Shown: positions 3,340-16,880 of the stretch, piece after piece
How positions within the stretch are numbered: position 1 is the stretch's first letter
How the letters are laid out: every line of letters begins with the position of its first letter
NCBI GenBank assembly: GCA_003483675.1
Contig: DMYK01000574.1
Location: 21,204-38,164, forward strand
Source: Microcoleaceae cyanobacterium UBA11344
GTDB taxonomy: Bacteria; Cyanobacteriota; Cyanobacteriia; Cyanobacteriales; Microcoleaceae
DNA: 16,961 bases
Direction of reading: 5' to 3'
Notes under the pieces: generated by a model
Told to the model about the DNA's origin: nothing
Database searches by the model: none
What the model saw: only the letters and a program-made list of their open reading frames with translations
Position numbers and translations under genes: made by a program

Positions 3340-4479
3340 TCACGAACCCAAAAATACGGTCATGACTATCCCTTGAAAGAGGATAAAAGCTAAGGGGAAC
3401 ATCCAGCGAAACTTTTGTATCATCCCAGAGGTGAAATCAGGATTTTTGTGATTGTTGAGCAAGCAATGGACGGTGACATTAGCTATGATCGACAAAAAGA
3501 AAAAGATATAACAGATAAATATGTATGCGTCTAGCAGAGTCAAGTAAGATAATCTCGGCAAAGCATTAGCAACAGTAAAGTTAAAAGTGATTGCCGTGAG
3601 GGTGCTGGTCATCCCTACACTCATTTGAGTGGAAAAAGCTGCATTAGCATCGAACCAAAAAGTCGCCCAAGAAAGCAGCGTAATTAGCAGCAGGGGAATA
3701 AAGACTTTAAAGATGTAAAATTCGTGATTGCGCTTGAGTTTGAGTTCAAAAGTGTATCGCGAATAGGTCTTATTTTCTAGTTCAAATTTTTGGGTAGTGA
3801 CTGTACTCTTGAATCCGAGAATTTGCCATTCGGATAAAGAAAGAAAAGAATCCGTACTGTATCCAGTTAACTTGGAATCTGTTTTTAACACTATACGTCG
3901 CTCATCAGAAGACAAAGATTCCAAAACAACCTTAGCTGTTTGCGAATCAAAGGGAAACTTTCTCAAATCTAAGTCAGAGGATACAGTGGCGTTAATGAGT
4001 TCTAAATAATTGACCGTACCGTCCGGCTGTGCGGTTAATTCCACCGCGCCTTTTTTGGCGGCTGATTGAGAATTGACAATCGTTAAAGCTGGTTCCCATA
4101 TTTTTTCGGAACTGTAACGCATTTCCCGATCGCCAATTGCTTTCGGGTCAAATGCTAGACGTCGGTCTTTCCAAGTTGCGGACAAATAACCGCTGACATC
4201 AAAAGTCTCATCTGATTGATTAATACGACCGAGGTTGGTGAGGTAGAAACCGACAACAACTTCTGTTGACTTGTCAGCGTTAGGAGGATTTTTGAGGGTA
4301 GCTTTGGAAGTTTCTGGGGGCGCTGTTGGCCCAGTTGTGGCTGCGGTGGTTGGTCCTGGTGCGCGGGAATTGGTGGGAGTATTTTGAGCTGTGGCTGGGG
4401 AATAGATAAAAAGAGCAGCAGTTAATGCTAGAGTAACTAGGGCTGAGATTGCGTGAGCTTTCAGTCGATTGTTGTTCAT
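3340..4479 (-). CDS. Pentameric ligand-gated ion channel (GLIC/ELIC-like)
   Basis: A 379-residue prokaryotic member of the Cys-loop receptor family. Order: signal peptide 1-32 (…YSPATA/Q), Pro/Thr-rich linker 33-68, beta-sandwich extracellular domain about 70-250, then four membrane helices: M1 ~255-275, M2 ~282-303, M3 ~312-338, M4 ~357-377. Hallmarks are WKDRRLAFDP (103-112), as I recall it from Gloeobacter GLIC, QPDGTVNYLE (151-160) and the Pro-loop FPFDSQ (175-180), which lacks the two cysteines, as expected for bacterial members. The M2-M3 stretch ALPRLSYLTLLD aligns ungapped with that of ELIC. By this alignment the pore has Ser at 2', Thr at 6' and Leu at 9'. The -2' position is Ser, not the Glu of GLIC, and GLIC's His at 11' is Ala, so proton gating and cation selectivity should not be assumed. 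The M3-M4 loop is short. ATG 4479 follows a good GAGGAA ribosome binding site. Confidence 0.95.
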   Translation of the reverse strand: MNNNRLKAHAISALVTLALTAALFIYSPATAQNTPTNSRAPGPTTAATTGPTAPPETSKATLKNPPNADKSTEVVVGFYLTNLGRINQSDETFDVSGYLSATWKDRRLAFDPKAIGDREMRYSSEKIWEPALTIVNSQSAAKKGAVELTAQPDGTVNYLELINATVSSDLDLRKFPFDSQTAKVVLESLSSDERRIVLKTDSKLTGYSTDSFLSLSEWQILGFKSTVTTQKFELENKTYSRYTFELKLKRNHEFYIFKVFIPLLLITLLSWATFWFDANAAFSTQMSVGMTSTLTAITFNFTVANALPRLSYLTLLDAYIFICYIFFFLSIIANVTVHCLLNNHKNPDFTSGMIQKFRWMFPLAFILFQGIVMTVFLGS

Positions 4480-5630: not shown

Positions 5631-6185
5631 TTACTGCAAAAGTGGTAATAGCCACTGTAATTCGCCACAAGCTGCTTGAAGCGATCGCGGTGCATCTTCT
5701 GGTAAGTCCTGAGCATAACATCGATCGGCTAAATTCTCAACATAGGTCTTGCAAACAGCCTCATTTTTCTCATATTTTGCATAAGCATCCTCCTCATTCA
5801 CAGTTTCTCCCTGCAAGTAGTGTATCCAAGTCTCAATATTGCGCTTGGGAACGAATATTGCGATCGCCTCATCCGATCGCCTCTTTTCCTGAGCATCTTC
5901 ATCAAGTATACTAGCTAACTGATTTAGTCTGTCTTGCAGCGTACCCCTATCTGCATCAATTAACACCACTAATGCGATCGATACCCGGTTTCTATTCTGG
6001 CGATAAGCTTTCACTTCCACCGGATACTGACTGCGTACATACTGTTCTCCAGATTGGCTACCGGGCGGACAAATTTTAGTCCGAAATAGACCTGTGAAAC
6101 CTCGCTTTTTCAGGAAATGACGGGCAAAAACTTCCTGCTGTCTATCCTCGCAGAGAATGACAATCTGAACTCTACGCTGACTCAT
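5631..6185 (-). CDS. Small TOPRIM-like protein paired with AAA ATPase
   Basis: A 184-residue protein. The N-terminus VQIVILCEDRQQEVFARHFLKK has the look of the first TOPRIM strand and helix with acidic Glu13. ALVVLIDADRG (72-81) provides an Asp77-x-Asp79 pair as in the TOPRIM DxD motif. IFVPKRNIETWIHYL (110-124) matches a segment seen in OLD-, RloB- and DUF4435-like families. TOPRIM domains of this kind usually cut or nick nucleic acid with divalent metal. Its ATG overlaps the last 14 bases of the upstream ATPase gene (ATG 6185, ATPase stop at 6172), so the two are translationally coupled. A split OLD-type or PARIS/AbiL-like defence pair is the best reading, but assignment to a named system is not secure. 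The C-terminus (140-184) is helical and unassigned. Confidence 0.75.
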   Translation of the reverse strand: MSQRRVQIVILCEDRQQEVFARHFLKKRGFTGLFRTKICPPGSQSGEQYVRSQYPVEVKAYRQNRNRVSIALVVLIDADRGTLQDRLNQLASILDEDAQEKRRSDEAIAIFVPKRNIETWIHYLQGETVNEEDAYAKYEKNEAVCKTYVENLADRCYAQDLPEDAPRSLQAACGELQWLLPLLQ

Positions 6186-7290
6186 TCAACCATCCCCGTG
6201 CAATCAGTTCAGAAACTGGCAATCCAGAATTGTCAGCTACTTCATTGCTAATTTTTTTGACTCTAACCGCAGCATTACTTTGACGTTCAAACCAATAGCC
6301 AATTGGTGAAACTAAAAGATAGTTGATTAACTCAGGATGGTGAGAAATTAGTAAAGCTTGAAGTTTACCATCACTACAAAGGTCATAAATCTCAATCAGC
6401 CAGGGTTGAATTTCTGGCAATGCTAAAAAGTTTTCTGGTTCATCAATCCACACAGTATAGTCTTCATATTTTGTACCGTGAATCAGCGCGTATAAAGCCA
6501 CTAATGTTTTTTGTCCGTCCGACAATTCTCTGAGACGATATTCAATTGGCTTGCTGTTATCTTTTTCTCCTGAAAACCGCAGTTTTAACACCAAATTATC
6601 TTCGCTTACTCGCTCAAACTTAAAATTGTTGAATCCATTCAAAACATCTTTTAAAATATTGCCAATTTCAGCAACTTTACCTTGATCTTCAGATAAGTAG
6701 CGATACCAAGAAACAAAATTTTCCATCTTAGGAGTCAAACGCATTTGTTCTTGGCTACTTTCATCAACCATCAAGCTGGGAACAACTTGCACGATGATAA
6801 ATCGCGCCATCCGTTCTCTAAACCAAGTTAACTTCGTGTTGTCGTTTCTTGGCATTAATGAAGGCAGAATAGATTGCGACCAGTCAAACTGGTATTTCGG
6901 GCCTGGTGAATAATCATCTCGATAGAGTTGAACTTCGCCGAATTCAAATTGTAGTAAAAGCCGGTTATCAAAGAGCAGACTCTCGTACCTAACACGACAT
7001 TTATCTCGATTGTCATCGATTTGTAATTGATATGTGTAGCAGCCGCCATTACCGAGAATTTCTAGCTCGAAACGCTGAATTTGTGAGATTTGCCAGCGGG
7101 TGCAGTCCGCTGGTTTGAAAATTCCTTCTACCTTACTGTCGCCGCTGACCAATGCTTGGATTTTCTGCAATACTTCAAAAACAGTTGATTTTCCCGAACC
7201 GTTAGTACCCAGAAATAAATTAATTGCATCAAGGTCAATTTCAAAATTAACCAGACAGCGAAAATTGTCAATGTATATCCGTTTCAACAT
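6172..7290 (-). CDS. AAA/ABC-type ATPase of the SMC/OLD-like group
   Basis: A 372-residue ATPase starting MLKRIYIDNFRCL, the typical 'I.NFR.' opening of OLD/RecF-like proteins. Walker A is GTNGSGKST (28-36), the ABC signature is LSDGQ (256-260), Walker B is VWIDEPE (280-286) with Glu284 as likely catalytic base, and the H-loop region is ISHHPELI (315-322). The middle, about 60-240, is an insert without known motif; no coiled coil or zinc hook stands out. The protein has no TOPRIM domain of its own; the downstream overlapping gene supplies one. Such pairs (for example AriA/AriB of PARIS, or RloA/RloB-AbiL) use the ATPase as sensor or scaffold for a nuclease. ATG 7290 has GGGA about 8 nt upstream. 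It starts 46 bp after the uup stop, so it may be read through from uup. Confidence 0.9.
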   Translation of the reverse strand: MLKRIYIDNFRCLVNFEIDLDAINLFLGTNGSGKSTVFEVLQKIQALVSGDSKVEGIFKPADCTRWQISQIQRFELEILGNGGCYTYQLQIDDNRDKCRVRYESLLFDNRLLLQFEFGEVQLYRDDYSPGPKYQFDWSQSILPSLMPRNDNTKLTWFRERMARFIIVQVVPSLMVDESSQEQMRLTPKMENFVSWYRYLSEDQGKVAEIGNILKDVLNGFNNFKFERVSEDNLVLKLRFSGEKDNSKPIEYRLRELSDGQKTLVALYALIHGTKYEDYTVWIDEPENFLALPEIQPWLIEIYDLCSDGKLQALLISHHPELINYLLVSPIGYWFERQSNAAVRVKKISNEVADNSGLPVSELIARGWLNESA

Positions 7291-10430: not shown

Positions 10431-11447
10431 ATGCGATTTGCTACCTATCTACACCCACAAACATTTTCTACTTCCAAATTAATACAAGAAATTTCTTTTA
10501 CCGGATATTCTTTTACCTACTACAATCAAGTTAGACAAACTCTTCAAAAATCTCTGACAGACTATCCAGCCTTACCCTTAATCAAAGCTAAAATGAGCGA
10601 TTATCTTAGGGTTCATGCTGGGGAATATCTCCGCAAACTGATATTACAAGCCCTCGGTAAACCACTAGATAAAATCAGCCTAGCCTTACCAGAATTGAGG
10701 ATTGAATGTCAAGGCTTGGAGTATTGTTTACCTGGTTATCTTTATGGTTTGGGAGGAATGATGGAAGCGATCGACCAAATGAAACAGGGAAACCTAGAAC
10801 GGGCTTACTGCTTCAGTATGGTAGGGCATCATGCTCACAGGAATTGGGGACATGGTTACTGTCTCTTAAACCCTCTTGCTGCTGCTGCTAGATATGCTCA
10901 GACGCAAGGATTTGAAAAAGTATTGATCCTTGACTGGGATATTCATCATGGCGATGGAACTCAGTCAATTTTTAGTAACGATCCTAGCGTCTATTGTATT
11001 AGCATTCATAGTGGCGTAGATCTCTACATGGCTAAAGCCTCAGACTTGAAAGCTGGAACAACAACCATTGCCGAAACTGTTGGACACTGCAACATTCCGA
11101 TCATTCCTGAATCTTTTCCAGTGGAAGTTTTGCAATCAGAAGGTATCACAGGCAGATTTTACTACGGCTATCAGAGTATCAGCACTTTTCGGCAAGCTTT
11201 AGAAAACCTGCCGTGGCAACCTGATTTAGTTGCTATTTTTTCGGGTTATGATTCCCACAGAGATGATTGTGGAAAGGGAATCACAGATTGGACAAATACT
11301 GATTTCTGTAAACTGACCGAAATTGTCTTATATTTTGCCAAGAAATGGGGATGTCAAGTGCTCTCTACTCATGGAGGTGGCTACAGATTACCAGTTACAG
11401 TAGCAGCAGCTACCGCTCACGTCAGGACTTTAGCAACCTATGTTTAG
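10431..11447 (+). CDS. Histone deacetylase/acetylpolyamine amidohydrolase-family hydrolase
   Basis: A 338-residue zinc-dependent deacylase of the arginase/deacetylase fold. Visible active-site residues: GHHA (132-135) with the two charge-relay histidines, LDWDIHHGDGTQ (167-178) with zinc ligands Asp170 and His172, SGYDSH (271-276) with the third ligand Asp274, and GGGY (315-318) with the transition-state Tyr318. All required residues are present, so it should be active. Bacterial members remove acyl groups from lysines (AcuC), polyamines or other amides. Residues 1-60, before the first motif block, are longer and less conserved. ATG 10431 has a ggga purine run 11 nt upstream. An acyl-CoA synthetase follows 99 bp downstream, a context that recalls AcuC, which deacetylates an acyl-CoA synthetase in Bacillus; the link is inferred. 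Confidence 0.93.
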   Translation: MRFATYLHPQTFSTSKLIQEISFTGYSFTYYNQVRQTLQKSLTDYPALPLIKAKMSDYLRVHAGEYLRKLILQALGKPLDKISLALPELRIECQGLEYCLPGYLYGLGGMMEAIDQMKQGNLERAYCFSMVGHHAHRNWGHGYCLLNPLAAAARYAQTQGFEKVLILDWDIHHGDGTQSIFSNDPSVYCISIHSGVDLYMAKASDLKAGTTTIAETVGHCNIPIIPESFPVEVLQSEGITGRFYYGYQSISTFRQALENLPWQPDLVAIFSGYDSHRDDCGKGITDWTNTDFCKLTEIVLYFAKKWGCQVLSTHGGGYRLPVTVAAATAHVRTLATYV

Positions 11448-11546: not shown

Positions 11547-13046
11547 ATGAATACTCAAAACGTGAATCTCCCCTTGATAAATCTTGCTCTAGGACACAAA
11601 GAGCGAATTGCGATCGCCACCAACGAACAAAAATATACCTATGCAGATTTGCTGCACACATCCAGCCAAATAGCAACAAATCTGCTTCAGGATGTGACAG
11701 ATTTACAAGAACAGCGAATTGCTTTTCTAATTCCGTCTGGCTTTGAATATGTTGCTACTCTGTGGGGAATTTGGCGCGCCGGTGCGATCGCCATACCTCT
11801 ATGTGTGTCCCACCCGCGACCAGAATTAGAGTATGTTATCACTAATTCTGGAGCATCAATGATTGTTGCCCATCCCAATTTTGAAGCTTTGTTGGGTCCG
11901 ATCGCCCGATCGCACAACTTACGATTTATCCTCACTTCAGAAACCCTTCCAACCCAGATTAGTCATCTTCCAGAAATAGATATCAGCAGACGCGCCTTAA
12001 TTCTCTACACCAGCGGTACAACCGGCAAACCAAAGGGAGTAGTAACCACTCATCAAAATATTCAAGCTCAAGTAACCAGCTTAATCGACGCTTGGGAATG
12101 GAAAGTTCGCGATCGCATTCTGCACGTACTCCCATTACATCATATTCACGGAATTGTCAATGTATTAACCTGTGCTTTATGGGCCGGCGCAGAATGCGAA
12201 ATGTTGAGCAAATTTGATGCCGAAACAGTTTGGAATCGCATTTGTGACGGTAATTTAACCTTATTTATGGCAGTACCGACGATTTATGTAAAATTGATTG
12301 CTGCGTGGGAAACCGCTACGGAAGAACGCCAAAAAAGCAGATCAGAAAGTTGCGCTAAAATGCGATTAATGGTTTCTGGATCGGCTGCGTTACCAGTTCA
12401 AGTATTAGAAAAATGGCAAAAAATCAGCCGTCATTTTCTGCTAGAACGCTATGGGATGACAGAAACTGGTATGGTCTTATCCAACCCTTTACACGGTAAA
12501 CGGGAATCGGGATATGTAGGTAAACCTTTACCTGGTGTGGAAGTGCGATTAGTCGATGAAAACGGAGAATTAGTCGCAGCAGGAACACCAGGAGAAATTC
12601 AAGTCAAAAGCGCTAGTGTGTTTCTGGAATATTGGCAAAACCCCGAAGCAACGGCGAAAACTTTCCGAGATGGCTGGTTTTGTACAGGAGATTTCGCAGT
12701 AGTCGAGAATAACAATTATCGGATTCTCGGAAGAATGAGCGTGGATATCATCAAAACCGGAGGCTATAAAGTTTCAGCTTTGGAAATTGAGGAAGTATTG
12801 CGATCGCATCCAGAGATTCAGGAATGTGCAGTGGTTGGGGTTGAGGATGTAGAATGGGGTGAGCGAGTTTGTGCTGCGTTAGTATTGCGATCGGCATCCA
12901 GTTTAACCTTAGCATCTTTCAGGAGTTGGGCAAAAGAGCAATTGGCGGTTTATAAAGTCCCCACCAGAATTTTAACAGTTGAAGAATTACCTAGAAATGC
13001 AATGGGAAAAGTGACTAAGCCGGCAATTATTCAACTATTTTGTTGA
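11547..13046 (+). CDS. AMP-forming acyl-CoA synthetase, malonyl-CoA synthetase (MatB/ACSF3)-like
   Basis: A 499-residue adenylate-forming enzyme making acyl-CoA from acid, ATP and CoA. Motifs: P-loop LYTSGTTGKPKG (153-164), VLPLHHIHG (194-202), SGSAALP (277-283), RYGMTETGM (301-309), GWFCTGD (376-382), hinge GRMSVDIIKTGGYKVS (395-410) and the C-terminal lysine in NAMGKV (Lys488). The LHHIHG and ERYGMTETGM…GKPLPGVEVR pattern is closest, as I recall it, to MatB and mitochondrial ACSF3, which act on malonate or methylmalonate. Acid specificity cannot be settled by eye. Length is typical. Lys488 is the residue that lysine acylation usually silences in this family. A TTATACT -10-like box lies at 11502-11508, about 40 nt before ATG 11547; there is no clear ribosome binding site. 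It may have its own promoter or follow the deacetylase gene. Confidence 0.93.
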   Translation: MNTQNVNLPLINLALGHKERIAIATNEQKYTYADLLHTSSQIATNLLQDVTDLQEQRIAFLIPSGFEYVATLWGIWRAGAIAIPLCVSHPRPELEYVITNSGASMIVAHPNFEALLGPIARSHNLRFILTSETLPTQISHLPEIDISRRALILYTSGTTGKPKGVVTTHQNIQAQVTSLIDAWEWKVRDRILHVLPLHHIHGIVNVLTCALWAGAECEMLSKFDAETVWNRICDGNLTLFMAVPTIYVKLIAAWETATEERQKSRSESCAKMRLMVSGSAALPVQVLEKWQKISRHFLLERYGMTETGMVLSNPLHGKRESGYVGKPLPGVEVRLVDENGELVAAGTPGEIQVKSASVFLEYWQNPEATAKTFRDGWFCTGDFAVVENNNYRILGRMSVDIIKTGGYKVSALEIEEVLRSHPEIQECAVVGVEDVEWGERVCAALVLRSASSLTLASFRSWAKEQLAVYKVPTRILTVEELPRNAMGKVTKPAIIQLFC

Positions 13047-13425: not shown

Positions 13426-15702
13426 TTATCTATTTTGCGGTATCCTAGGTGGGCACCAAAACAGGTTTTTGCTGCAAACCCCGATCGACTCCAAAATCCC
13501 TCGCATCACGTCTGTACAGTACATCCAGTGTCCTAAATCGTCATACATTCGATCGGGATTAAACTCCACATTGTAATGCAGCACATGATCAAGTCCTGCA
13601 AATTCATCGGAAGTTTGGGGAGAAAGCAGCAGTAATTGAAAAGGTTTCCCCTGGCATTTGTATTCCAGTTTATGGATGAGATCGATCACACCATTGCGAT
13701 CGGCAATACCTGTGCGAACAAACAGCACTTGGTCGCAATGTTTAAGTGCGTACCAAAACCGCCCAGAACGTGCCGTATATCGCTCGCGCATCCGTTCGTA
13801 TACCGGAGACATATCGTTAACAGGATCGTCTGTATCCTCAATTTCATGGGCAAAAGAAAGACCTGACCATTTGCTATGATAGATTCTACCGGCTTCGGCA
13901 CTGTAGTGCAGAAAAGCAGGATTCCACATATCATAAAATCCGTTTTCGATCGCATCTGCAACATCTCCAATATTGGTAGTGCGCGTCAAATCGAAGGGAA
14001 AAGCTGGACCATCGTACTCCATTTTATACAGCATCATCCGCACCGCACACCGATCGCCCAGTGGCAAAATCGCCACGCGGCTGATGTCGGATAATTGACA
14101 TTTATATTGAAACAATACAGCGGATTTAGGCGGTGCTTTCACCCGGCTTTCGATCCCATCTTTGCCAATCATCATGGTGCGAAAAGGTGTGTCGGGATTT
14201 AGCGGATCGTCATAGACTCCCGATGGCATGGCTTTCAGTAGATTGCGAACCTCTTTCCACATGGGTTGGATGTTGTATTCTTTGTCTGATTCGTTGATAA
14301 TCCAAAGGTGGCGATCGTCTAATTTCAAAATTCCTAAATGCCCGTCATAAAACAACAGTTGTGAGTTGTTCGGTGCAAAAAGATTGAAAGCGGAAGTGTA
14401 TTCTAAGTCGGCACCGGGGGGAATTTCCATTGTAGTTTCGATCGCCCCATTTTCCGGCACTGCAAAGAAAGGAAGCGTCCCTGACAAGACATTCTTATTA
14501 ATGTAGATCCCCGGGATCAATCCTGCTTTGCTTTGCAGTGCAGTTTGCATTGCTTGCCAATAGGTAGCGATTGTGTAATTGTTTGGTGATGAATTGACAA
14601 TCCGCAAACGTTGTTCTTCACAACAAGCAGTGACTTGAAAACCCGCATTGTCAAGGTAAACTGGGACTTCTTTGGGTTGGCTAATGTTTTGTTTTTCTCT
14701 TGCTATTTCGTCTTTGTCGATCGCAAACAAGTTAAGATCGATCGTCTCATACATCAGGTTATGACCGATCGTATTTGGGTGAGACGGATCGAAGGATGTT
14801 CCTGGTTTCCAGCGTCCTTGTCCATCATCCAACACTCTCAGCCAATCCAGCACTGGAACGCCCCAATTCTGCATCCGGTGGTGAGTATCTCGCAGCAGCC
14901 AGTAATGTTCTGAGTTATATTCGCCGTGGGGATATACCCCGCCCAGAATCGGACGTGCTCCCAAAGCCCGTGTCATTTTCACCAACTGCTGCAAGCCGCT
15001 TTCAAACCGGCGCTGGGCTCCCCGTCGTTCGTGAGGGCGACAGTAGGCCAACCCTTCGTTACCCAGAGACAGAGCAATAATTACCACATCTGGTTGTTCT
15101 GGGGCGACGACTGAGGAAAAACGGGCGATCGTTCTGCTGATATTGGCCCCCGCTTCTGACAAATTTACGAGTTGGTGTCCGTATTTTTCCTGCAAAGATT
15201 GTTCCAACTGGGAAGCCCAACCTTTGAACATCCAGGTTTTATGACCCTTGGCGACGGAGCTACCAATAACTGCGATTTTTAAGCCTTCAGACTTTTGGTT
15301 CGATGGGAGCTTGACAGCGGGTTCTTCAAGGTATCCGAAGGGATAAGGCTGCAAATAACCAAAGGTACCATCGTCTACTACGATTTTGCTGGATTTGTGG
15401 TCTGGGTCGATCGGTATCCAGCGGTTCCAACCGAATCCTTCCCATTCTGCGATACCGTTGGCATGAATATATACGTACTTATATTCAATTTTTTGGCGAT
15501 CGGCAGAGTATGTTGTCGAAGAGTGTCGAAGAGCCAGAGCTGGCTGAATGTCTATATCTATGTACCATAAAGGATAGCGATCGGCACTTGTGTTAAGGTG
15601 TACACATTTCGTGATATCCCACAGTCCTAATTCGGGAGCAGAACCGACGATCCCGATGGATGCGCCAGTCTGCGTGGGTCCAATAATCTGGAATCGATAC
15701 AT
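13426..15702 (-). CDS. CBM20 - SGNH hydrolase - DUF1796 papain-like fusion protein
   Basis: A 758-residue protein with at least three parts. Residues 1-110 are a CBM20-like starch-binding domain (GSAPELGLWD, then WYIDIDIQ and EYKYVYI, GIAEWEGFGWNRW). Residues 141-328 are an SGNH/GDSL hydrolase: block I IGSSVAKG with Ser149, Gly185, block III SLGNEG with Asn215, block V DPSHPN with Asp305 and His308; the full set suggests an active esterase or carbohydrate deacylase. Residues about 345-530 look like beta-rich spacer domains of unknown family. Residues 541-750 match DUF1796, a putative papain-like cysteine peptidase, with LGDRCAVRMML (Cys552), FPFDLTRT (568-575) and FAHEIED (His619). There is no signal peptide, so it probably works in the cytoplasm, perhaps on glycogen or another glycan; that is inferred. 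ATG 15702 has a weak agagaa ribosome binding site. The gene stands alone behind a repeat island. Confidence 0.85.
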   Translation of the reverse strand: MYRFQIIGPTQTGASIGIVGSAPELGLWDITKCVHLNTSADRYPLWYIDIDIQPALALRHSSTTYSADRQKIEYKYVYIHANGIAEWEGFGWNRWIPIDPDHKSSKIVVDDGTFGYLQPYPFGYLEEPAVKLPSNQKSEGLKIAVIGSSVAKGHKTWMFKGWASQLEQSLQEKYGHQLVNLSEAGANISRTIARFSSVVAPEQPDVVIIALSLGNEGLAYCRPHERRGAQRRFESGLQQLVKMTRALGARPILGGVYPHGEYNSEHYWLLRDTHHRMQNWGVPVLDWLRVLDDGQGRWKPGTSFDPSHPNTIGHNLMYETIDLNLFAIDKDEIAREKQNISQPKEVPVYLDNAGFQVTACCEEQRLRIVNSSPNNYTIATYWQAMQTALQSKAGLIPGIYINKNVLSGTLPFFAVPENGAIETTMEIPPGADLEYTSAFNLFAPNNSQLLFYDGHLGILKLDDRHLWIINESDKEYNIQPMWKEVRNLLKAMPSGVYDDPLNPDTPFRTMMIGKDGIESRVKAPPKSAVLFQYKCQLSDISRVAILPLGDRCAVRMMLYKMEYDGPAFPFDLTRTTNIGDVADAIENGFYDMWNPAFLHYSAEAGRIYHSKWSGLSFAHEIEDTDDPVNDMSPVYERMRERYTARSGRFWYALKHCDQVLFVRTGIADRNGVIDLIHKLEYKCQGKPFQLLLLSPQTSDEFAGLDHVLHYNVEFNPDRMYDDLGHWMYCTDVMRGILESIGVCSKNLFWCPPRIPQNR

Positions 15703-15895
15703 AGGTTTTTTCTCTATCTAAAGATACAAGGCCGGACAGGAAGGCTGAATCCTCAAAGTTGTTTTGACAGTAACACATAGGAGTTGTTAAAATCTGTCTT
15801 GAAAATAACATTGGACAGTATTAATCTTCTGTGTCCCCAGATTCATTCCTTCCTATTCTTGTCAATTCGTTACCAAGTCAAAAAACTATTCAATT

Positions 15896-15930
15896 CTTCA
15901 ATCTTCAATCTTCAATCTTCAATCTTCAAT
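15896..15930. repeat. Heptanucleotide tandem repeat (five units of cttcaat)
   Basis: Five perfect cttcaat units run 15896-15930 and are bordered by attcttc on the left and ctaaaatt on the right. On the minus strand this reads aattttagattgaagattg…, the same family as the attttag array that ends the methyltransferase gene at 5523. Confidence 0.9.
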
Positions 15931-16038
15931 CTAAAATTCGATGTTCCGCTTGACTCATAACAAGTAAGCGTTTATAGTAAGTGATTTACCGGACTTGATC
16001 TAACGGGAGTAATTTGCCAATTTCAAATCTCAAAATAG

Positions 16039-16074
16039 AAAAAATCGATCGACCTTGACTAAAAGAGCGATCGA
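16039..16074 (-). terminator. Possible intrinsic terminator of the TerC-family gene
   Basis: Read on the minus strand, TCGATCG (16074-16068) and CGATCGA (16051-16045) form a 7-bp stem around a 16-nt loop, followed at once by six T. It starts about 36 nt after the TerC-family stop. The loop is long and CGATCG is frequent here by chance, so the call is tentative. Confidence 0.35.
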
Positions 16075-16109
16075 CTTTCCACAAAAACAAAAGTCTATAA
16101 TCAAGGAGC

Positions 16110-16880
16110 TTAAATTTCGGACTTCAGTCCTTCCGACTCCAGCGCTACAGGTTCTGAATCTGGCTGCTTGAGAGCAACTTCCAAGGATTTTAGATCAGTT
16201 CGCAATTCAGGACTACGTTGAGAAAATCCCCAGACAAATACTAGGGCTATACTCAAAACCACCAGCCATTGCGGCGGAACTAAATTGTCATTAATCACTT
16301 TCACCAGCAGTCGCAAGCCAACCAACCCGACGGTGACGTAGCCAGCATCTTCCAGGTGAACGAATTCGTCCAGCCAGCGGATGAACAATCCTGCCATAAA
16401 TCGCAGGGCGATAATTCCGATTGTCGCGCCCGTCAGCACGAGCCAAGTTTGATCAGAAATTGCGATCGCCGTAGTGACGCTATCCAAAGAAAACGCTAAA
16501 TCTGTCAAAGCAAGCACTGGAATTGCTTGCCATAGAGACGAAAATCGCGGCCCGTGATGTTCTCCTTCCGAGTCAGCATCTGAGTAAAAATGCTGGAAAA
16601 CTAGCCACAGCAGGTAGAGAGCTCCTAGCAGTTCAAACTGCCAGTATTGGATCACCCAAGTAGCAGTTAAAATTAATGCGATCCGTAGTACAAAAGCAAT
16701 TGCCAAACCGAAGTTGAGAGCCTGTTGCTGTAGCTTGGCATCTTCCAAACCTTTAGAAATAGATGCCAGGGCGATCGCATTGTCTGCCGAAAGAACAGCC
16801 TCCAAAGCCACCAAAACCAATAATAATAAAAAGGCATCTACTCCAAAACTGGGCGAAGCGTCGAGAAATTGATCTAGCAT
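16110..16880 (-). CDS. TerC-family integral membrane protein (probable metal transporter)
   Basis: A 256-residue polytopic membrane protein with about seven hydrophobic segments between 14 and 219. The family signature is clear: LEAVLSADNAIALA (26-39), with Glu27, Asp33 and Asn34 in the membrane, and the second half-repeat TDLAFSLDSVTTAIA (126-140) with Asp127 and Asp133. TerC-family proteins include manganese and calcium exporters (for example Alx/MntP-linked systems and bacterial TerC paired with secretion), and plant relatives act in thylakoid biogenesis. Metal flux is the likely role; the ion is not evident from sequence. A His-rich acidic loop (DADSEGEHHG, 101-110) separates the halves, and the C-terminal 35 residues are soluble and acidic. 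ATG 16880 has no clear ribosome binding site. The gene is alone in the window; nothing here suggests tellurite resistance. Confidence 0.92.
   Translation of the reverse strand: MLDQFLDASPSFGVDAFLLLLVLVALEAVLSADNAIALASISKGLEDAKLQQQALNFGLAIAFVLRIALILTATWVIQYWQFELLGALYLLWLVFQHFYSDADSEGEHHGPRFSSLWQAIPVLALTDLAFSLDSVTTAIAISDQTWLVLTGATIGIIALRFMAGLFIRWLDEFVHLEDAGYVTVGLVGLRLLVKVINDNLVPPQWLVVLSIALVFVWGFSQRSPELRTDLKSLEVALKQPDSEPVALESEGLKSEI

Follow-up and report, generated by a model that had tools for sequence, protein, structure and literature searches.

Starch-binding modules of family CBM20 can hold short α-glucans in their binding site 1. This site was defined as Trp543, Lys578 and Trp590 in the glucoamylase of A. 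niger (PMC9920598). In WcbI, a capsule enzyme that binds coenzyme A (CoA), a cysteine ends strand 1 of an alpha/beta lobe and is found along with a His (PMC4104973), and for MatB-type enzymes an Arg, a His and a Ser have been named as residues at the acid (PMC6122825). Here, we describe a gene, hereafter T, found in a 16,961-nucleotide stretch of DNA from Microcoleaceae cyanobacterium UBA11344 (contig DMYK01000574.1, positions 21,204 to 38,164; the whole stretch is referred to as the window), and a ligase gene convergent with it. T codes for a CBM20 module, an SGNH hydrolase and a DUF1796 domain in a single chain. This architecture is already visible in databases, but the protein is apparently unstudied: no paper on DUF1796 or on the architecture was found in PubMed Central, a search that left subscription papers and preprints outside its scope. 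What is new here is the ligase partner of T; the spacer ahead of DUF1796 is a tandem duplication.

T occupies positions 13426-15702 on the minus strand and encodes 758 amino acids in the order CBM20, SGNH, tandem repeat, DUF1796; the opposite strand over the same interval is rich in stop codons and has no open frame. The domains were called by hmmscan against Pfam-A and all three scored above the Pfam cut-offs: CBM_20 (residues 4-105, positions 15388-15693; E 1.6e-14, 53.9 bits for a cut-off of 23.3), Lipase_GDSL_2 (residues 145-315, positions 14758-15270; E 9.9e-15, 55.9 bits for a cut-off of 32.9) and DUF1796 (PF08795; residues 541-745, positions 13468-14082, with the Pfam match at 545-682; E 1.2e-8, 35.3 bits for a cut-off of 23), all on the minus strand. 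The original prediction had these three domains on one polypeptide with exact coordinates and with Ser149, Asp305, His308, Cys552 and His619 correctly numbered, all of which holds; it did not state the strand. Homologues of T start with MY[RQK]F, running straight into the first CBM20 strand, in all 18 members of a first alignment (A1; 52-76% identical to T). MY also opens 41 of another 44 homologues, the remaining three starting with LY, with VY or one residue in. No export signal or signal peptide is visible when the N-termini are read, in agreement with what had been predicted, and as far as can be told from its sequence T would be cytosolic.

A protein search with T returned 474 homologues. 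All three Pfam domains were present in 119 of the 120 that were listed, so T is no accidental fusion, and the organism names given with them are those of cyanobacteria. When species genomes were scanned, 136 relatives were confirmed; the 80 best all come under cyanobacterial titles and include Nostoc, Calothrix, Dolichospermum, Oscillatoria, Pseudanabaena, Crocosphaera and Chamaesiphon, among others. One contig titled as a metagenome-assembled genome of the Gloeobacterales (L127) carries a T that is 64% identical to that of the window, above the Pseudanabaena copies (59-60%), and may be mis-binned. We also used a sample of 386 genomes drawn evenly from the phylum, in which the top two candidates per genome were scored for T and the top four for the ligase. 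T was found in 26 of them, 25 times at full length (the window's own genome included) and once as a split gene (G143), where the reading frame shifts at a stretch of ten A lying between the SGNH domain and the repeats (L027, around 1501-1546); the shift may have arisen by mutation or slippage or be a sequencing error. Two other genomes (G167, locus L028; G118, locus L029) hold only decayed remnants, and T is missing from the six further members of the window's genus in the sample.

The strongest evidence on function, which had been missed in the original prediction, comes from the gene convergent with T, at positions 11547-13046 on the plus strand, which codes for a MatB-like acyl-CoA ligase of 499 amino acids. 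A close orthologue of this ligase (59-100% identity, 632-1132 bits) is present in 19 of the 386 genomes and all 19 carry T; the next three genomes below, at 37-40% and 286-335 bits, are also T carriers, and the remainder score 265.7 bits or less. The contrast between 19 of 26 T carriers and none of 360 other genomes gives 9e-27 in Fisher's exact test, without correction for kinship. However, in six genera with both states (32 genomes, from tables read by hand), 10 genomes have both genes and 22 have neither, and because of these mixed states kinship does not easily explain the co-occurrence. Both genomes with remnants of T lack the ligase; the exceptions are G286, G131, G177 and G332, which have T without it. 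As a control, the deacetylase-like neighbour at positions 10431-11447 has orthologues in eight genomes, only three of which carry T, and does not co-vary; it was rejected as a third partner. A close orthologue of this neighbour was seen beside the ligase only in the window's genome and in L064; L035 and L076 have a relative at 31%.

Linkage points the same way. In the neighbourhoods of 80 named T loci, with the ligase called at more than 450 bits within the fetched flank, it is found near T in 54, in convergent orientation in 42, downstream in the same direction in 11 and upstream in one; three arrangements imply at least two rearrangements through which linkage was kept. Among the 26 loci without it, eight end 2.4 kb or less downstream of T, and the neighbour family that ranks next after the ligase is present in 13 of the 80 loci, among those of Nostoc type. 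For the T carriers of the 386-genome sample the ligase lies in the fetched region in nine, once directly upstream of T; in the other 10 of the 19 ligase carriers it is either 0.65 to 2.5 Mb from T on the same contig (G191, G119 and G109) or on a different contig (seven genomes). We regard T and the ligase as very probably functional partners. The best PDB matches of the ligase are the malonyl-CoA ligases 3nyq and 4fuq, and the malonate-binding triad, R301, H201 and S279, is present in 74 of 74 aligned rows, some of which are one gene fetched twice. On these residues, a malonyl-type substrate has close to an even chance of being right.

The first half of T has the marks of an enzyme directed at α-glucan. 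Alignment to glucoamylase (1ac0) places starch-binding site 1 at W28, K75 and W87; in a second alignment, of 38 homologues (A2), both Trp residues are found in 38/38 and K75 in 35/38, and the starch-binding site is predicted to be intact. In the SGNH domain, Ser149, Gly185 and Asn215, of blocks I-III, and His308 are invariant in A1 and A2, bearing out the claim that all four blocks are present; Asp305, three residues before His308, is Asp in 18/18 and 37/38, with one Asn, the only departure among the catalytic residues that had been named. The modelled SGNH part has the SGNH fold, its nearest structures are carbohydrate esterases, and the closest PDB sequence to T is the esterase TesA. T is rather likely to be an α-glucan-directed esterase.

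The DUF1796 domain is matched by PF08795 in the corresponding part of 38/38 T homologues scanned. C552, D571, H619 and R645 are invariant in A2, and Cys552 and His619 also in A1, suggesting that T has a second functional active site. In a wider DUF1796 alignment of 24 rows, D571, F589 and R645 are invariant and H619 is found in 19, the other five having Asn; G549 and C552 cannot vary there, since the motif filter used demands a G and a C. Six of 25 standalone sequences were dropped, three as the wrong open reading frame (L154, L160 and L163) and three that visibly retain G..C (L164, L168 and L179). The model of the domain (predicted local distance difference test, pLDDT, 87.9) alternates strands and helices in a Rossmann-like arrangement, with Cys552 just past the first strand. 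Moreover, the neighbours of sampled standalone DUF1796 genes, from which one protein was scanned in each of 10 of the 25 loci, include glycosyltransferases, sugar aminotransferases, hexapeptide transferases, a nucleotidyltransferase and a sulfotransferase. On the basis of the Rossmann-like model and these glycan-biosynthesis neighbours, the domain is probably not a peptidase; that it is an acyl transferase is a tentative assignment, for which the chances fall somewhat short of even. In one genome outside the window's class, DUF1796 is fused to a GT2 domain (L158, 1183-2655, minus strand).

Between these domains lies what had been described as an unassigned, beta-rich spacer at residues 345-530. 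The lack of assignment stands, as the module matches no Pfam family or PDB structure at E < 0.01; yet the region is not a single spacer but two tandem copies of one module of about 98 residues, at residues 343-440 (positions 14383-14676) and 441-538 (14089-14382), both on the minus strand. The copies were recognized by BLASTP and hhalign (probability 98.1, E 7.5e-14 against each other) and have a similar order of strands plus one helix in the model. A protein search with the module gave nine matches of 155-343 amino acids, seven of which had already been found with the DUF1796 piece; this overlap indicates that the short matches are mostly pieces or split copies of T, and in the protein search the module has so far been seen only in the T family. 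Two proteins from a 103616-base contig of Aulosira sp. ZfuVER01 (P0129 and P0176) match different parts of T and may be another split copy. MbtH proteins activate adenylating enzymes, and a hairpin in the second copy, IINESDKEYNIQPMWKEV (residues 468-485, positions 14248-14301, minus strand), resembles the MbtH core, with weak statistics. MbtH-like repeats were rejected: the PDB match has an E of 1.3, hhalign against five MbtH sequences, from five of seven MbtH loci, gives copy 2 a probability of 6% and copy 1 one of 4%, and the score of copy 2 was reached by 2 of 600 random segments. The likeness was picked after the fact and serves as a lead only.

The architecture, residue conservation, co-occurrence and linkage are as reported by the tools; the activity and the substrate we infer. 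T and the ligase could work together as a cytosolic module of two genes whose task is to process acyl esters carried by an intracellular α-glucan, most likely glycogen, a reading of the whole chain that we offer as possible yet doubtful. The N-terminal CBM20, with its intact binding site, would tether T to the glucan, and the SGNH domain, given its carbohydrate-esterase-like fold and intact blocks, would cut O-acyl esters off it and release the acid. DUF1796 would act as a cysteine-dependent glycan acyl transferase, in the way proposed for WcbI, and add the acyl group; this is the weakest step. The ligase would re-activate the released acid with adenosine triphosphate (ATP) and CoA, and judging from its acid-binding residues, of the malonyl/methylmalonyl-CoA synthetase type, the acyl group would probably be malonyl. 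An extended version is improbable. In it, a cyanobacterial storage glucan would bear a reversible dicarboxylic (malonyl-type) ester mark; T would write this mark through DUF1796, a cysteine acyl transferase of a new class, and erase it through SGNH, the acid would be recycled by the dedicated ligase, and the repeat module may dock that ligase.

Were the module to work as proposed, glycogen or another internal α-glucan of cyanobacteria would carry an acyl modification served by enzymes for its addition, removal and recycling. We found no description of such a system: no paper on acylated glycogen turned up in PubMed Central, within the same limits as above, and the words 'acylat', 'malonyl' and 'esterified' are absent from the part searched of a 2024 review of prokaryotic α-glucan enzymes (PMC11046441). 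DUF1796 would gain a testable function, and the automatic labels 'cysteine peptidase' and 'lipase' would be replaced on many cyanobacterial proteins. The co-occurrence of T with one specific ligase makes the reading directly testable.

T may instead only de-acylate, as a glucan-tethered ester or thioester hydrolase in which DUF1796 either hydrolyses as well or binds the substrate, the ligase salvaging the acid and glycogen not being esterified on purpose. SGNH is the best-supported catalytic domain, the nearest PDB sequence is an esterase and salvage fits a ligase beside an esterase; however, the invariance of the four DUF1796 residues in 38 homologues, two of which (D571 and R645) recur in 19 distant DUF1796 proteins, and the biosynthetic loci in which sampled relatives sit argue against this explanation, which we also consider doubtful. 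It is unlikely that the substrate of T and the ligase is a small acylated glycoside or an oligosaccharide precursor of a surface polysaccharide, with CBM20 reading a maltose-like unit rather than glycogen. Sampled standalone DUF1796 genes do occur in apparent surface-glycan loci, and the capacity of site 1 for short α-glucans would suit such a substrate, but the 22 families most often found near T in the 80 loci include none that looks like a glycosyltransferase, as judged by eye from sequence starts rather than by scanning, and T has no visible export signal.

The original prediction had proposed an enzyme for an intracellular glycan or a glycan-attached protein, combining an ester hydrolase with a putative cysteine peptidase or transferase. 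Its intracellular, glycan-directed and ester hydrolase parts are consistent with site 1 of CBM20, the N-terminus of T and the esterase-like model of SGNH. A papain-like cysteine peptidase that processes a glycan-attached protein is, in turn, very unlikely: it draws on the name of the Pfam family, putative papain-like cysteine peptidase, and on the invariance of Cys552 and His619 in T proteins, but in the predicted fold strands alternate with helices and the Cys follows the first strand, the His is replaced by Asn in 5 of 24 DUF1796 proteins, the sampled neighbours are mostly glycan-biosynthesis genes and a CoA ligase partner would not be expected. The transferase that had been left open fits better. 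Finally, that shared horizontal transfer alone links T to a ligase serving polyketide or fatty-acid metabolism has very little to commend it, for although T is patchily distributed (26/386 genomes) and its distance matrix agrees with that of the ligase (r 0.91 over 54 loci), a result also expected from co-transfer or simple common descent, both genes are kept where the ligase lies outside the fetched T region, linkage survived the rearrangements, and both genomes with remnants of T are without the ligase.

Elsewhere in the window, the gene of a TerC/YkoY-family membrane protein lies upstream of T in the same orientation (positions 16110-16880, minus strand), as also in L060, L061 and L064. The region upstream of T (positions 15690-16120) contains a short direct repeat with CTTCAAT units, and no Rfam family scored above its gathering score there. 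T and the ligase were rejected as a defence system, neither having a PADLOC match at E ≤ 0.01. At positions 5631-7290, on the minus strand, an overlapping pair codes for an AAA ATPase (the PADLOC models PDC-M25A and HEC-01A being among the best) and a 184-residue protein with weak matches to HEC-01B (E 5e-4), possibly a two-gene anti-phage system. A homologue of pentameric ligand-gated ion channels (Neur_chan_LBD plus membrane domain) is found at positions 3340-4479, minus strand.

How does the locus compare with the described systems? The ligase has the R/H/S triad of the MatB malonyl/methylmalonyl-CoA synthetases 3nyq and 4fuq; however, it has a Lys where an Arg of that group contacts the CoA phosphate and retains, by our own reading, 5 of 11 group residues, and at 385.7 bits it does not reach the cut-off of 558 for NCBIfam PRK07514 (malonyl-CoA synthase). 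We therefore call it MatB-like and do not file it as MatB. The likeness of DUF1796 to WcbI is a proposal about how the domain works: the position of Cys552 in the model resembles the published description of WcbI. The WcbI profile (PF18588) is absent from the Pfam matches of T (E ≤ 1) and of the 38 DUF1796 domains (E ≤ 10), in searches where the HMMER filters drop most weak matches, and the WcbI fold is not among the listed fold matches of the model. PF18588 and DUF1919 (PF08942) were each found in none of 59 genomes, and in no control genome either, a result uninformative on kinship. With the standalone members of PF08795 the domain of T shares the Asp, the Arg and mostly the His. Outside the window's class DUF1796 is mostly a standalone protein of about 250 residues, whereas within that class the sampled genomes have it as a part of T and nowhere else, G368 excepted; the assembly from which the window comes (74.7% complete) has no match other than T. 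To the CBM20 of glucoamylase and CGTase, T is related by a profile match above the cut-off and by the retained residues of site 1; the PDB matches are amylolytic enzymes or modules thereof, whereas in T the module precedes an SGNH hydrolase. Lastly, the SGNH domain is 17-19% identical to the SGNH-fold carbohydrate esterases PbeAcXE and CspAcXE (7tog and 7toj; a further entry, 7toh, has MeGlcA-Xyl bound according to its title), but T differs from these in its CBM20 module, in a second domain that looks catalytic and in the lack of a visible export signal.
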